Shown: positions 18,298 to 25,500 of the stretch, in pieces | Numbering within the stretch: position 1 is the first letter of the stretch | Layout: every line of letters begins with the position of its first letter | Assembly (NCBI GenBank): GCA_030949985.1 | Contig: JAUZRX010000017.1 | Location: forward strand, 1 to 64,000 | Direction: 5' to 3' | Source of the DNA: Acidobacteriota bacterium | GTDB taxonomy: Bacteria; Acidobacteriota; Polarisedimenticolia; J045 | Length of the DNA stretch: 64,000 nucleotides | Translations under genes and position numbers: made by a program | The notes under the pieces: model-generated | The model's input: the letters and a program-made list of their open reading frames with translations, nothing else | What the model was told of the DNA's origin: nothing | Databases searched by the model: none

Positions 18298-18324
18298 TTG
18301 ACCCGGAAGGAGAGGGCGTCCCCT

Positions 18325-19374
18325 ATGCCGTTCCCACGATCCGGTTTTCGGCGGTTCGCCACGCTCGCCGTGGCGGCCATGGTCATTTTCCTGCTGCTCC
18401 CCCCGGGTTTTGCAGGCCGCCGCTGGTCCGAGCGCGAGCGCCATGACGGCCCTCCGGGCAACCTGGCCGTCATCTCGTTCAAGCTCTACGAGGTGGGTGT
18501 CGCCGGCGTGCGGCACCAGATGCTGGCTCGGGTGCTGGTGGAAAACCAGTCCCCCCTCGACCTGGAGTCTCCCTTCCGGGTGCTGATCGGCCGGGCGGAA
18601 GCGACTCCCGCCGCCGGCGGGCGCGGGATCTTCAAGCGCAAGCCGCGCCCCGGGAGTGCCGCCGTCGGAAGCTGCCGGGGCGAGCTGCTCCCCCGGGGGC
18701 AGGTGGCGATCTGCGACATCTGGCTGCAGGCCGACCTGCTGGCCGAGGGCGAAGAGATCGCCGCGCGCCTCGACCGCTCGCTGCCGGGATACGCCGCCTG
18801 GGACGGCGACCCCTCCAACGATCAGCTCGTCACCCGGCTGCGCACCACCACCCCGGGTCGGAGCACCCTGCGCATCGCCAAGTGGGACGTGCGCCCGCGC
18901 ATTCTCCACGGCATGGGCGAGGTGCAGTTCCGCTTCACCGTGGAGGGCGCCCACCTGGCCTGGCTGCTCAGCGAGAACGAAAAGGAGCCGCGCCTGGTGG
19001 CCGGCCACCCCGCCGATGGCCTGCTCAGCGGCAACGGGACGATCAAGATTCGCGAGTCGGGACCGCTGACCCTGGTGGCCCGCAACTCCCTGGGCGCCTT
19101 CGTCTACGAGACGATTCCCGTGCTCAACAGCTACGAACCGCCGCAGAACGCCTGGCACCAGGCGCCCGCCGCGGCCGTGGACGCGGAAGCCACGGCTCGC
19201 ATCCTCGACCCCGGGGTCTACGACGAGGACGACAACCGCATCATTCTCGACAACCTCGCCTCCTACCTGGCGGCCAAGGACTGGGCCGTGGAGCTCGAGC
19301 GCCTGCGCCGCCTGGGCGAGGAAGACAAGCCGCTGCCCGCCAGCGTCCTCAATCCGAAGGCGCGGGATCGCTGA
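18325..19374 (+). CDS. Secreted protein of unknown function
   Basis: A 349-residue protein with an N-terminal signal peptide or anchor (hydrophobic residues about 13-33, AGRR after). The body is beta-rich, with a segment near 50-160 resembling a CARDB/FN3-like fold (VLVENQSPLDLESPFRVLIGR, then a Cys pair in SCRGELLPRGQVAICDIWL). The C-terminal 60 residues are acidic and helical. GGAAGGAGAGG lies about nine bases before the ATG at 18325. The gene is transcribed away from the Pho unit. I do not recognise a family or pathway. Confidence 0.75.
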   Translation: MPFPRSGFRRFATLAVAAMVIFLLLPPGFAGRRWSERERHDGPPGNLAVISFKLYEVGVAGVRHQMLARVLVENQSPLDLESPFRVLIGRAEATPAAGGRGIFKRKPRPGSAAVGSCRGELLPRGQVAICDIWLQADLLAEGEEIAARLDRSLPGYAAWDGDPSNDQLVTRLRTTTPGRSTLRIAKWDVRPRILHGMGEVQFRFTVEGAHLAWLLSENEKEPRLVAGHPADGLLSGNGTIKIRESGPLTLVARNSLGAFVYETIPVLNSYEPPQNAWHQAPAAAVDAEATARILDPGVYDEDDNRIILDNLASYLAAKDWAVELERLRRLGEEDKPLPASVLNPKARDR

Positions 19375-19467
19375 TCGGTTTCCGGTTCCGGGAAAAGGTG
19401 TCGGGGGAGCGGGCTTGAGGGCACGGTCCGAAACGCCGCGCGGGTCGTCACGGACCGATCGCCCGGA

Positions 19468-19869
19468 TCAGTCCTTGAACAGCGAGTCGAACAGCGACTT
19501 GGAATTCTTCGCGGTCCTGCCGGCGTGGCGCTTGCCGGTGGAGTCGAGGACCAGGCGCGGCTCGTAGCCGGGGCAGCGGTTGGCGGCCCACTTGTCGTCG
19601 ATGCCCGTTTTCAGCGGCTTGCGGCACTGGAAGCGGGCGCCCGAATCGAAGAAGCGGCAGTGGCGGCAGGAGTGCAGGGCCGTCCCGCAGCGGTCGCAGG
19701 CGGACTGGGGGCCGACGAAGGCGGCCTCGCCCATCTGCTGATGACCGCACTGCTGGCAGCGTAGCACCTCGGTGGCGGAGCGCTCCATCCCGCGCCGCAG
19801 CCTCCGCACTTGTTCGCGGTTGCCGAGGTCGGGTTTCGGGGGAGGAGGGGGTTGTCGCCGATCGTCCAT
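19468..19869 (-). CDS. Small zinc-ribbon protein
   Basis: A 133-residue soluble protein with at least seven cysteines in zinc-binding spacing: CQQCG, then CDRCGTALHSCRHCRFF, then FQCRKPL and NRCPGYEP. The N-terminus is proline-rich and charged. It looks like a double zinc ribbon, a fold used in nucleic-acid or protein contacts. The ATG at 19869 is preceded by AAGGAG nine bases upstream. It stands alone, 76 bases downstream of the kinase-like gene on the same strand. Function unknown. Confidence 0.72.
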   Translation of the reverse strand: MDDRRQPPPPPKPDLGNREQVRRLRRGMERSATEVLRCQQCGHQQMGEAAFVGPQSACDRCGTALHSCRHCRFFDSGARFQCRKPLKTGIDDKWAANRCPGYEPRLVLDSTGKRHAGRTAKNSKSLFDSLFKD

Positions 19870-19945
19870 CCGGGCGATCTCCTTACGTGTGGGGCGTGTG
19901 ACGCCATGAGCATACTGCGAAAGCCGGGCCGGGGCCGGATTCCCC

Positions 19946-21670
19946 TCACGCCGGGCCGGTGAGCATCGAGGCCGGGGGCGGGGCATCGAGGGCCTGGCGC
20001 ACGCTGCGGGCCAGGGCCTCGGAGGCCAGGGGCTTGAGGTAGATGCCCACGGCCCCCTCCCGGAGGGCTGTCTCCTCCTGGTCCGGTAGAGGATAGGGGC
20101 AGAGCATCAGCACCCGCTGTCCCGGCCAGTGGGCGAGGATCCGGCGCAGCACGTCGGGGCCGTTCCAGCCCGGCAGCACCATGTCCAGCAGCACCAGGTC
20201 CACCCGGGGGCGATGGCGCAGGCGGTTGAGGGCCTCCCGGGGAGTCGCCACGCCTTCGACCAGGTAGCCGAAAGGTTCGAGCAGGCGGCGGCATTCCTCC
20301 AGCGCGCTGGGATCGTCGTCCACCACCAGCAGCGTCTCGCGCCCGCGCCAGCGGGTGGCGTCGTCGGGGGCCTCCGCGCTCTCCGGCAGGGGGGCGTCGG
20401 ACAGGGGCAGCGCCAGCCGCGCGATGGTGCCCCGGCCGGGCTTGGAGTCGAGTTCCACGAAGCCCCCGTGGGCTCGGGCCGCCCCGTAGACCACGGTCAG
20501 CCCCAGCCCCGAGGCGCGCTTGCCCTTGGTGGTGAAGAAGGGCGAGAAGGCCCGGGCGCGGACCCGCTCGTTCATTCCGCAGCCGGTGTCCCGCACCTCG
20601 ATCAGCAGGTAGGGGCGGCCCTCGCTGCCCGGGCGGATGGCCGCCCCGGCGGAATCCAGGTCGAGGCGCCGCAGGCGCACGCGGATCTCGCCTTCTTGCT
20701 GGGCTTCCGCGGCGTTCTGCAGCAGGTGCCAGAAGGCCTGGCGCAGGTGACTGGCATCGCCCCGCACCACCACCGGCTCGTCGATCTGCACCTCCAGCTC
20801 GAGGGTCAGCTCCGGCGGCAGGGTACGCACGAAGTCGGCGCAGACCTCCCGCACCAGCCGGCCCGCGTCGAGGGGCGGCGGCGGCGGGCCCTCGAGGCCG
20901 GCGGGGGCGAGCTGGAGCACCCGCCGGGCCAGGGCGCTGCCCCGGGTGGCCAGGCGATCGATGCGTTCGAGGCGCTGGGTTTCGGGGATGTCCTCCCGGT
21001 CCTCCCGGGCAATCGAGCGGATCTCCCGGAAGACCTTCTCGAAGGCCCGGGCGAGGGACTCGGCCACATCGGCCAGGGCCTCGAGGCGGGCGACGTTGCG
21101 CAGCCTGAGTTCCAGGGTGCGGCGCTCGCCCAGGTCCCGCAGGAAGAGGGCGAGCTGCTTGCCGTGACGGGAGGGCACCAGGGCGCAGGAGGCCTCCAGT
21201 TCGACCCGCGCGCCGCTGCGCCGCAGGGCCGAGAAGGTGAGCTGACCCGGCTCCACGGCGCCCTCGCTGCGCCGCCGGAGCCACTGCTCGACGGCGGGGC
21301 GGTCCTCGTCGGCCACCAGCGAGAGGAAAGAGCGTCCGACGATCTCCTCGTCGGGGGGTAGGGCGAGCAGGGTGCGGAAGGCCGGGTTGGCCTGGTGGAT
21401 GCGGCCCTCCCGCACCAGCACCACGCCGTCGGGACTGGCGTCGATCACCGCCTGGGCCCGCAGCCGGGAACGGTCGAGAGCCCGTTCGATGTCGTGGATC
21501 CGCTCCCGCTGGCGTCCGGCGAGCCAGGCCAGGGCGCCGAAGGCCAGGCAGAGCAGCACGGCGGCGACCAGTCCGGGAATGCGAAAGGGGGAGGCGAGCA
21601 GGGCGTGGACCACGCCGGCGGCGGCCAGCAGCAGGGTCAGCAGGCTGACGGCCAGCGCCACCCGCCTCAC
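19946..21670 (-). CDS. Hybrid histidine-kinase-like protein without the phospho-acceptor His
   Basis: A 574-residue protein: two helices (about 5-50), a PAS domain (70-190), a dimerisation-like helical region (195-290), a HATPase domain (about 310-430) and a C-terminal receiver (450-565). HATPase marks are HLLQNAAEA, VRDTGCGM and SGLGLTVVYG. The receiver keeps VVDDD, LLLDMVLPG and YLKPL but has Cys in place of the usual Thr/Ser (LMLCPYP). Where related kinases read LAxxVAHDFNN, this one has VAESLARAFEKVF, with Arg instead of His. It may work as a non-canonical or pseudokinase partner. The GTG start overlaps the upstream methyltransferase-like stop (GTGA). Confidence 0.82.
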   Translation of the reverse strand: MRRVALAVSLLTLLLAAAGVVHALLASPFRIPGLVAAVLLCLAFGALAWLAGRQRERIHDIERALDRSRLRAQAVIDASPDGVVLVREGRIHQANPAFRTLLALPPDEEIVGRSFLSLVADEDRPAVEQWLRRRSEGAVEPGQLTFSALRRSGARVELEASCALVPSRHGKQLALFLRDLGERRTLELRLRNVARLEALADVAESLARAFEKVFREIRSIAREDREDIPETQRLERIDRLATRGSALARRVLQLAPAGLEGPPPPPLDAGRLVREVCADFVRTLPPELTLELEVQIDEPVVVRGDASHLRQAFWHLLQNAAEAQQEGEIRVRLRRLDLDSAGAAIRPGSEGRPYLLIEVRDTGCGMNERVRARAFSPFFTTKGKRASGLGLTVVYGAARAHGGFVELDSKPGRGTIARLALPLSDAPLPESAEAPDDATRWRGRETLLVVDDDPSALEECRRLLEPFGYLVEGVATPREALNRLRHRPRVDLVLLDMVLPGWNGPDVLRRILAHWPGQRVLMLCPYPLPDQEETALREGAVGIYLKPLASEALARSVRQALDAPPPASMLTGPA

Positions 21671-22461
21671 CGGGGGCCTCCCGGCGGGGCACTCAACACC
21701 CGGGCGCCGATCACCTGGTGATCTTCCCGGGCGGCCTTGTCCATGTCCCGCACCAGGTGCGGGCGGTCGATGGCCACCCGCACGGTTTCTTCCCGCACGT
21801 CCCAGGCTCCCAGTTCGGCGCTCCACTGGCGCCACCAGCCCTCGGGCTGGGACGTGCGGGGTTCGAGGATCAGCAGCCCGGCACCCCGGCGGCGGCGGGC
21901 CAGCAGGCTTCCCAGCAGGGTGCGGCGGGTGGCGTCGCCCACCAGGCCGGCGAGCCAGGCCAGGCAGTAGAGGTCGCCGGCGCCGCCGGCGGGCAGGCGT
22001 CCGGTGATGGACTCCCGGCGCACCTGGCCGTCGAGGCCCAGGGCGCGCCAGGCCAGGCGGGTTTCAGCGACGCACCAGGGCGAGGGCTCGAGGCCGATCA
22101 ACCGGGGCGGGTGGTCGAGGGCCAGGGCCAGCCCCGCCGAGGCCGCTCCGGTCAGGCAACCGACCTCGGTGATCCGCGCCACCGGCGTCGCCGTGTCGAA
22201 GAGCATCTGGGCGGCGTGGTAAGTGGTGAGAAAGCGGAGCGCGGCGCGATAGGTGGCCAGGGCGGCACGCTTGCCCCGCCCCTGGCTCAGGCGCGCCAGG
22301 TCGACGCCTTCCGGACCGGGTTCGGCCACCAGGCGCGCGACGGCCTGGGCCCCCTTGCGGATCTCGGCGAAGGTCAGTTCCTCGCGGAAGCGGGCCAGGG
22401 TCTCGGCCTGCCAGTCGTCGAAGCGCCGCCGGGGTTCTCCTTCCAGGTAAGGGAGCTGCAT
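21667..22461 (-). CDS. SAM-dependent methyltransferase-like protein
   Basis: A 264-residue cytosolic protein. A Rossmann-type methyltransferase core is suggested near residues 95-130 by ITEVGCLTGAASAGLALAL and LIGLEPSPWCV, equivalent to motif I and the acidic loop of motif II. The N-terminal 80 residues are helical. No specific family signature is seen. The ATG at 22461 begins MQLPYLEG; an ATG twelve codons upstream is possible. The stop overlaps the kinase-like gene start, so the two probably function together. Substrate unknown. Confidence 0.68.
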   Translation of the reverse strand: MQLPYLEGEPRRRFDDWQAETLARFREELTFAEIRKGAQAVARLVAEPGPEGVDLARLSQGRGKRAALATYRAALRFLTTYHAAQMLFDTATPVARITEVGCLTGAASAGLALALDHPPRLIGLEPSPWCVAETRLAWRALGLDGQVRRESITGRLPAGGAGDLYCLAWLAGLVGDATRRTLLGSLLARRRRGAGLLILEPRTSQPEGWWRQWSAELGAWDVREETVRVAIDRPHLVRDMDKAAREDHQVIGARVLSAPPGGPR

Positions 22462-22542
22462 GCGGCGAACGCTAACAGAAGCGTTGCGCTTCCGCATCAC
22501 GCCGCCGCGCCGCCGCTCGCGGGGATGGCCTTCGGCGCTACC

Positions 22543-25500
22543 ATGGCCCACGTGAAGCGCCTGCTCGAATCTCTCCTGGCCGATCCGCGCATCGGTGAGC
22601 ACGCCGTCTACCAGGGCCTCGAACCGGCCCGGCAGGCGGTCTACGCCATGCCCGGCGCAGGCTTGTCCTCCAGCGCCCAGGCGGGCATGACGGCGTTGGG
22701 GGTCGAACGGCTCTACTCCCACCAGGCCAAGGCCGTGGAACTGGCTGCCGCCGGTGAGAACTTGCTGCTCGCCACCCCCACCGCCTCGGGCAAGACCCTG
22801 GCGTTTCTGCTCGCCCTCGACTGCGCCCGCCGGGCGGACCCCGAGGCCCGGGGGCTGTTTCTCTATCCTCTCAAGGCGCTGGCGCGGGACCAGCTCGCCA
22901 CCATCCGGCGTTTTTTCGAGGCGGCCGAGGGGCTGGCGGCCGAGCCGGCGGCGGAGGTCTACGACGGTGACACCCCCCAGAGTCAGCGCCGGCGCATCCG
23001 CCGGACACCCCCGGCGGTGCTGGTGACCAACCCCGACATGCTGCACCTGGGGATCATCCCCTCCCACGACGCCTGGGCGGGTTTCCTCGCCAGGCTGGCC
23101 TGGATCGCCGTGGACGAGGCCCACGTCTACCGCGGGGTGTTCGGCGCCCACGTGCACCACGTGCTGCGGCGCCTGCTGCGGCTGGCGCGGGATTACGGCG
23201 CCGATCCGCGGATCGTGGCGGGGTCGGCCACCATCGGCGAGCCGGAGGCGTTCATCGAGACCCTGACCGGTGAGCCCTGCCGGGTGGTGCGCGAGTCGGG
23301 CGCCGCCGCGGCGGCACGGCACGTGTTGTTCCTGCGGCCCGACGCGGTCTCGCCCTACACCGTGGCCACCCGGGTGGTGGCCCGGGCGGTGGAGGCCGGG
23401 CATCGCACCATCGCCTTCACCAAGGCGCGGCGGATCACCGAGCTGATGCAGCGCTGGCTGGCGGAGGGCTTTCCCCGGGTGGCCCGGCGGGTGGCCAGCT
23501 ACCGCTCGGGCTACCTGCCCGAAGAGCGGCGGCGCATCGAGCAGCGGTTGTTTTCGGGTCAGCTCGGCGGCGTGATCTCCACCTCGGCCCTCGAGGCGGG
23601 GATCGACGTGGGGGGCCTCGACGTCTGCGTACTGGTGGGCTACCCGGGTTCGCTGGCCACCGCCTGGCAGCGCATCGGCCGGGCCGGCCGGGGAGCGCGC
23701 CGCTCGCTGGCGGTGTTGGTGGCCTTGCCCGATGCCCTCGACCAGTTCGTGGTGCGTCACCCGGAGCATTTCTTCTCGGGAGAGTTCGAGCGGGTGGTGC
23801 TCGATCCCCGGAACGACACGATCGCCGATGCCCACTTCCAGGCGGCGGCCTCCGAGCGCAGCCTGGACCTGGCGGCGGCGCGCACCCTGGGCGGCGAGGC
23901 CGGGCCGGGGCGGGTGCTGCGTCTCGAGCGGGAGGGCAAGCTGATCCGGGCCCACGAGGAGGAGCGCTGGTTCTCCCTGCGCCGCCGGCCCCAGCGGGAG
24001 ATTCACCTGCGCTCGGCGGGGCAGACCTACCGCCTGCTGCGGGCCGGCGACGGGCGCCTGCTGGGCACGCTGGAGCCGGGGCGGGCCTGGCACGAGGGGC
24101 ACCCCGGGGCGATCTACCTCCACGGCGGGCAGGCCTGGCGGGTGATCGACTTCGACGAAGAGAAACGGGAGATCCACCTGGAGTCTGCCAGCGTGGACTA
24201 CTTCACCCAGGTCTTTGCCCGCAAGGAAACCGAGATCCTCGAGCGGGGCGAGGAGCGTCCCCTGGGGCCGGGCAAGCTGGCCTGGGGCCGGCTGAAGGTG
24301 ACGACCCAGGTGGAGGGCTATTCCCGGCGGCGGATCTTCGGCCAGGAGGAGATCTCCCGCCACGCCCTGGAGGCGCCGCCCCAGGTGATGGAGACGGTGG
24401 GTTTCTGGTTCGAGGCGCCGGAAAACCTGGCCGGCCACCTGGTCGGGCGGGACTTCCACCCCGTCGGCGCCCTGCACGCCGTCGAGCACGCCGCCATCGG
24501 ACTGTTCCCCTTGCTGACCTTGTGTGATCGCTGGGATCTCGGCGGCATCTCCTACGCCCGGCATCCCCAGGTGGGCGCCCCGGCGGTGTTCGTCTACGAC
24601 GCCTGGCCGGGGGGGGTGGGACTGGCCCGGGCGGGTTTCCGCTGCGCCCAGGAATTGTTCGAGCGGACCCGCACGCTGGTCGCCGAGTGCGAGTGCGAGG
24701 GAGGTTGCCCGGCCTGCGTGTACTCCCCCAAGTGCGGCTCGGGCAATCACCCGCTGGACAAGCAGGGGGCGGTGGAGGTGCTCGACGTGATGCTGGGGCG
24801 CTCGGTGATCGACCCTTCGCGGGTGGCCGATCCCACTGCCGCGCTGGCCGCCCACCGGCGGGTGGTGCATGGGGGGGTGCGGGGTGGCGGAGCGCTGGAG
24901 GTGGAGAGTTGCGCGGCAGAGGCCGGCGAGCCGCCCGTGCCCCCCGCGGAGGCTGCGCCCGACGGTGGGGGCCGCCTCGAGGACTATCCCTGGCCGGACG
25001 GGGTGCCGGCCCTCGGCGAACTGCTCGACCCCAGCGAGGGTCGCTGGCTGTTCTTCGACATCGAGACCCTACGCTCGGCGAAGGACGTGGGGGGCTGGGG
25101 CAAGATCGACCGCATGGGCTGCGCCCTGGCGGTGTGCCTCGACGCCCGCAGTGGCGAGCTGCGGAGCTACTTCGAGAGCGACGTATCGCGCCTGGTGGAC
25201 GAGCTGCTCGCCGCCGACCGGGTGGTGGGCTTCAACAGCGAGCGTTTCGACCTGACGGTGCTCGAGGGTTACGAGGGCTCCCGGGTGCGCGGGGTGCGCA
25301 GCCTCGACCTGCTGGCGGAGATCAAGCAGCGGGTCGGTCGTCGCTTCAGCCTGGCCCACCTGGCCGAACAGACCCTCGGTGCGAGCAAGACCGCCGACGG
25401 CCTGCAATCTCTCGAATGGGTCAAGCAAGGCCGCTACGACCTGATCGAAAAATACTGCCGCGCCGACGTGGCCCTCACCGCCGCCCTCTGGGCCTACGGC

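Follow-up and report, generated by a model that had tools for sequence, protein, structure and literature searches.

Loss of the phospho-acceptor histidine across a family-wide set of Acidobacteriota hybrid kinase-like proteins with conserved ATP-site and receiver residues

Judged by its sequence, the hybrid kinase-like protein P0001, encoded in a 64,000-nucleotide stretch of an Acidobacteriota genome (contig JAUZRX010000017.1; hereafter the window), is a pseudo-histidine kinase, i.e. a protein with histidine-kinase architecture but without the acceptor histidine (the criterion is taken from PMC12632262), which is a kind already described in print. Comparison of the available genomes firmly supports that the loss of the acceptor is maintained throughout the family under purifying selection. 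With the loss fixed in nine orthologs and both the ATP site and the receiver under selection, these proteins constitute a natural test of an ATP module that has no acceptor. According to excerpts of PMC12632262, 0.9% of HisKA domains (722 of 76,471) lack the histidine, but a census based on HisKA would probably miss P0001, because Pfam does not list HisKA for its DHp region (at a maximum E-value of 1). None of the literature matches listed dealt with this kinase family, and a phylum-directed search gave a single paper, likewise unrelated.

P0001 consists of two N-terminal helices, a PAS domain, a DHp-like helical hairpin, an HATPase_c (CA) domain and a receiver (REC), in that order, for which Pfam returned HATPase_c (E-value 3.5e-20; 72.9 bits versus a cut-off of 26.4), Response_reg (2.7e-17) and PAS (6e-09). 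The AlphaFold2 model (mean pLDDT 87.6, pTM 0.52; alignment of 37 sequences) places the N-terminal helices at residues 2-26 and 30-78, followed by the PAS fold, the hairpin, CA and the receiver, although the placement of the domains relative to each other is uncertain given the pTM of 0.52. The N-terminal helices, which are hydrophobic by eye, are probably membrane helices, and P0001 is probably membrane-anchored. A promoter and terminator scan of positions 19400-22700 found none. The coordinates of the features are collected in Table 1.

Table 1. Position of P0001, its domains and the adjoining genes in the window
Feature	Position	Strand	Details
Small Cys-rich, zinc-ribbon-like protein P0003	19468..19869	minus	76 bp downstream of the kinase
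Hybrid pseudo-histidine kinase P0001	19946..21670	minus	574 aa + stop, GTG start; from translation
Receiver	20000..20329	minus	residues 448-557; Asp496, Lys546, Cys524 for Ser/Thr, Pro525 for Gly; Pfam and alignment
HATPase_c (CA), residues of the N, G1, F and G2 boxes kept	20399..20761	minus	residues 304-424 (Pfam); motif columns
DHp-like helical hairpin	20903..21130	minus	residues 181-256; helices 181-222 and 230-254 (AlphaFold2)
Arg208 codon, position of the phospho-acceptor His	21047..21049	minus	profile alignment; computed from the GTG at 21670
Methyltransferase-like gene P0002	21667..22497	minus	stop overlaps the kinase GTG (GTGA, 4 bp)

In a profile alignment, P0001 reads SLARAF where its relatives carry AHDFNN, and the histidine column is occupied by R208, as had been claimed in a preliminary description of this DNA (LARAF in place of VAHDF). 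The DHp phospho-acceptor histidine of an active hybrid histidine kinase is absent from P0001. The same description had named an alternative histidine in the helical domain as the finding that would overturn its reading; by sequence there is none, as inspection of residues 181-256 of P0001 revealed zero His and zero Tyr, and no His column extends through the orthologs. An alternative acceptor in the DHp domain was therefore rejected, the orthologs showing only scattered His and Tyr residues: His occurs in four of them (G008 at 192 and 233, G006 at 240, G003 at 192, G010 at 192 and 222), His192 being common to three of the nine, and the one Tyr is found in G008 at 235. These counts cover the P0001 columns 181-256 without inserted columns (where G006 has one extra His), and for G002 they cover the region without its first 20 residues.

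One ortholog each is present in nine of the twelve family genomes compared (match E-value 1e-100 or better), while in G004, G005 and G009 (84, 84 and 99% complete) no match was stronger than 7.1e-46, 4.2e-55 and 2.2e-64, respectively. The G002 ortholog is divided between two contigs; that of G001 runs off its contig and is without most of the receiver. At the acceptor site, where the invariant Phe210 sets the alignment register, the nine orthologs have R, R, E, S, R, R, G, A and R, i.e. histidine is absent from all nine, and a mutation confined to a single genome was rejected for that reason. The acceptor site varies freely among the orthologs, and therefore no single substitute acceptor has been retained at that position. 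Four residues further on (+4), where 98 of 100 homolog rows have Asn, the orthologs carry K, K, K, K, R, T, S, S and G; the +1 residue is acidic in seven of the nine and Ala in the window protein.

The wider comparison comprised 101 loci besides the query, namely 21 of the 30 loci from the homolog search (L018-L038, the remaining nine being the query together with its orthologs) and the best 80 of 416 from a contig scan. The profile alignment showed His in all 99 non-orthologous homologous loci, which are best hits and not a random sample; only L061 and L062 are without it, and these are not independent of the G007 and G010 orthologs. A quick tree groups all nine orthologs in a single clade (SH-aLRT 100), whose stem is long (1.26), and a single loss event is likely, the placement of the clade being poorly resolved in this tree.

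The HATPase_c domain of P0001 has its N, G1, F and G2 boxes, with N319, D361/G363/G365, F378 and G388/G390 kept, and all of these residues are identical in the nine orthologs. The earlier statement that the ATPase domain is retained, along with the receiver Asp and Lys (see below), consequently holds for the orthologs too, among which the key residues are unchanged. Variation is found around them: Lys382 is Arg in one ortholog and the two residues that precede it are variable, the F-box reads FFSSK, FYSTK or FFTTR besides FFTTK, and ahead of the G2 box one residue fewer is present than in CckA.

Between the window genome (G000) and G001, of the same genus, dN/dS (NG86) is 0.13 overall (DHp 0.16, CA 0.10; 459 codons, no receiver), between G011 and G007 it is 0.23 (DHp 0.25, CA 0.14, REC 0.09), and between G000 and G008 it is 0.31 with dS above 1. 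Mean pairwise identity among the P0001 orthologs amounts to 0.49 for DHp, 0.56 for CA and 0.65 for REC (46 of 118 receiver positions being invariant). The order of DHp and CA is reversed in three groups of other kinases from the family that served for comparison, with DHp/CA identities of 0.65/0.43, 0.56/0.45 and 0.53/0.45. This can be read as a relaxed constraint on DHp and an unrelaxed constraint on the ATP module, albeit from few groups, two of which are best-hit sets (L156 and L165, one-to-one orthology unproven), while the third (L149) includes the window genome's own Tyr copy. No receiver could be located for the L156 group, and the L165 group has a low REC value (0.39) and a DHp (0.53) only slightly above that of the P0001 orthologs. 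In the closest pair, G000 and G001, DHp and CA are equally conserved (0.91 each).

The C-terminal receiver has the acidic pair, the acceptor Asp and the Lys: D451 and D452 are identical in all nine orthologs, and D496 and K546 in the eight that reach them. Residue 524, which is Ser or Thr in 34 of 34 His-bearing relatives (alignment A3), is Cys in the window protein, as had been pointed out before; it is, however, Ser in all seven other orthologs reaching it, so that the Cys is correct for this protein and not a trait of the family. The next residue is Pro in seven of eight orthologs and Gln in one, versus Gly in 33 of 34 relatives. The receivers of the relatives have an S-G-Y consensus, of which the Tyr is kept in the orthologs (Ser-x-Tyr in seven, Cys-x-Tyr in the window), and three residues before the Lys, where 24 of 34 relatives carry F or Y, the orthologs have I, L, I, V, I, T, T and I. 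Excerpts of PMC9981736 describe an FxSGY motif for CckA-type phospho-intermediary receivers; at the end of beta4 the window protein reads LMLCPY and the orthologs xxSPY or xxSQY, instead of this FxSGY (FATGUY) motif. These features suggest a receiver that may still be phosphorylatable, yet would not act as a classical allosteric switch, and the Pro or Gln after residue 524, together with Cys524, could weaken receiver chemistry.

Among known systems, P0001 shares its PAS-DHp-CA-REC order with CckA of Caulobacter and other HDFNN-type hybrids. Alignment with NtrB-type hybrids had been suggested earlier, but P0001 is of the HDFNN type: its top phmmer match in the PDB is the DHp-CA structure of CckA (5idj_A), and no NtrB model is found among the best 25 of its 111 NCBIfam matches. 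The CA structure 5idm_B of CckA has the highest target-normalised TM-score (0.81, at 35% identity) among the 50 Foldseek rows listed, which are mostly histidine kinases and phytochromes, although other kinases rank above CckA by E-value. P0001 nonetheless differs from CckA in having no His, no +4 Asn, and CPY/SPY instead of SGY in the receiver; it scores 142.4 and 133.8 bits with the NCBIfam CckA models versus a cut-off of 1000 and is not a CckA equivalog by that measure, and its best NCBIfam match among those listed (PRK13557) reaches 159.9 bits versus a cut-off of 631.

Three proteins with comparable lesions have been described. As given in excerpts of PMC11481889, CCNA_03265 (CC3162) of Caulobacter has a His-less kinase domain, keeps the receiver Asp and has been suggested to be phosphorylated by an HPt or a heterodimer; it resembles P0001, by description, in the missing His and the kept Asp, but has a nearby candidate histidine (H151), whereas the DHp hairpin of P0001 has none. 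RetS of Pseudomonas, as portrayed in excerpts of PMC5992135, is a non-autophosphorylating hybrid whose own receiver takes a phosphoryl group from GacS, and thereby is a precedent for receiver loading by a partner kinase. Its lesion is the opposite one, the ATPase G-boxes being missing and the His site retained, while the G-box residues are present in all nine P0001 orthologs and the His is missing. In DivL the acceptor His is replaced, as in P0001, and excerpts of PMC4211667 report that DivL signals without kinase or phosphatase activity and binds an ATP analogue weakly, as opposed to the unchanged key ATP-site residues of the P0001 orthologs. The DivL site is Tyr; that of P0001 is Arg, and none of the residues in the orthologs (R/E/S/G/A) is Tyr. 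DivL is not known to have a receiver.

Taking these observations together, the reading that fits best, about as likely as not, is a pseudo-histidine kinase that binds ATP and whose receiver would gain or lose phosphoryl groups in trans, through another kinase or an HPt. The earlier proposal that P0001 may bind ATP and signal without autophosphorylation, or be phosphorylated by another kinase, is compatible with the sequence. Mechanistically, P0001 would bind ATP without autophosphorylating, its conformation would be set by input through the N-terminus and PAS and by CA with ATP bound, and its receiver, presumably derived from the SGY phospho-intermediary receivers of the CckA type, would exchange phosphoryl groups in trans with a kinase or HPt. 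P0001 could thus be a gated sink or relay station for phosphoryl groups in a partner pathway. The genome encodes 41 His-bearing kinases of the HisKA type and has six HPt matches, one of which lies within a 124-aa open frame; a small HPt is encoded at G000:C10:193940-194188. Counting against this mechanism are the variable F-box and the shortened stretch ahead of the G2 box, the altered residues at and after position 524, the equal conservation of DHp and CA in G000 and G001, and the weak binding of an ATP analogue by DivL, which is likewise devoid of the acceptor His. A more far-reaching reading, rather unlikely, is a lineage-specific class of ATP-competent, acceptor-less hybrids with a lesion opposite to that of RetS, in which the ATP-bound core would act in trans upon partner kinases, either as a catalyst or as a gate, and the modified SPY receiver would be a one-way phosphoryl sink.

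Two alternatives seem rather unlikely. P0001 could be the trans-acting half of a heterodimer, in which its CA domain phosphorylates the DHp histidine of a partner, i.e. it would supply catalysis and not the acceptor. Acceptor-less and ATPase-less subunits reportedly complement each other in this manner, in work on EnvZ and NtrB, and the CA domain is better conserved than in the three comparison groups despite the absence of an acceptor of its own; a heterodimer has also been proposed for CCNA_03265 (PMC11481889, from excerpts). However, among DHp, CA and REC it is the dimer-forming DHp that is conserved least, and some other function would have to be found for the conserved receiver. Alternatively, the DHp/CA core could function as an allosteric pseudokinase that binds a phosphorylated response regulator or another kinase and modulates it without phosphotransfer, the receiver being used for docking; the loss of the acceptor His together with the +4 Asn fits such a role, for which DivL provides a published precedent (PMC4211667). 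What speaks against it is the receiver, since the unchanged Asp and Lys in the eight orthologs that reach them and its position as the most conserved domain go beyond what docking requires.

It is highly improbable that P0001 is a transmitter phosphatase devoid of kinase activity. The +1 residue is acidic in most orthologs, Thr occurs at +4 in one, and HisKA domains can act as phosphatases without the conserved His according to excerpts of PMC12632262, but the otherwise near-universal +4 Asn is replaced throughout the orthologs and the +1 residue of the window protein itself is Ala. Gene decay or a sequencing artefact is scarcely credible: Cys524 and the Tyr of another kinase (C10:96095, see below) do show isolated active-site changes in this assembly, whereas the frame is open, dN/dS is as low as 0.13, and the identical loss is present in all nine orthologs, which come from separate genomes.

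The coupling to a methyltransferase-like gene, which had been called unusual, was only borne out within the family. There, P0002 lies upstream of the kinase on the same strand in eight of the nine genomes, at distances from overlapping to about 430 bp (2.5 kb in G010), but among 20 class-level P0002 homologs outside the family a related kinase lies close to just one, and this kinase has kept its His (G025; a profile A1 match at 3.4 kb on the opposite strand, with HDFNN kept). The other 19 are without a related kinase in the fetched stretch, by which an obligate kinase-methyltransferase pair is weakened. P0002 homologs were found in 32 of the 41 genomes searched; at class level 20 of 21 such genomes were covered (G028 left out), with G014, G018 and G031 among the stretches that reach contig ends. 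G004 and G005 have P0002 without a kinase ortholog at an E-value of 1e-100, P0002 being followed by other genes or the contig end, and in G034 a response-regulator-like frame adjoins the P0002 homolog. The adjacency suggests co-transcription within the family and not an obligate functional pair, and the link may be a matter of local operon history.

P0002 itself matches no Pfam family, while five of its family homologs match Methyltransf_25 (E-values of 3.5e-09 to 9.8e-05, four over the cut-off and the last below it), and one has a weak Rsm22 match (0.0012, below the cut-off). At the putative SAM-binding motif P0002 and its G001 counterpart read GCLTG, as against G-C/A-G-T/S-G, with Gly in third place, in eight other copies from the family; from these residues, methyltransferase activity in the genus of the window is doubtful. 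On the other side of the kinase, P0003 matches Zn_ribbon_RPAB4 at an E-value of 0.11, below the curated cut-off. A gene at 18298-19371 on the plus strand (358 aa) has no Pfam match at an E-value of 0.001, and homologs of it are found near the kinase in five other family genomes (G008, G010, G011, G007 and G002).

The genome has 52 HATPase_c matches, of which 43 belong to kinases of the HisKA type, 41 with the His (by regular expression and by eye on the sequences), leaving P0001 and C10:96095 as the ones without. Nine matches were set aside from this count: two that we take to be GyrB/ParE-like, one MutL-like, one RsbW-like and three CheA-like, as well as one without recognisable DHp and one truncated. 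C10:96095 (G000:C10:96095-96433, L149, outside the window) is a hybrid kinase with Tyr for the acceptor His (THVSYEVRTPL); its Tyr looks either recent (a DivL-like substitution) or an error, because its relative in G001, of the same genus, has the His. A further match outside the window (G000:C17:73143-73361, L180) covers only profile positions 35-109 of HATPase; it sits after stop codons, is followed by receiver-like sequence and looks truncated.
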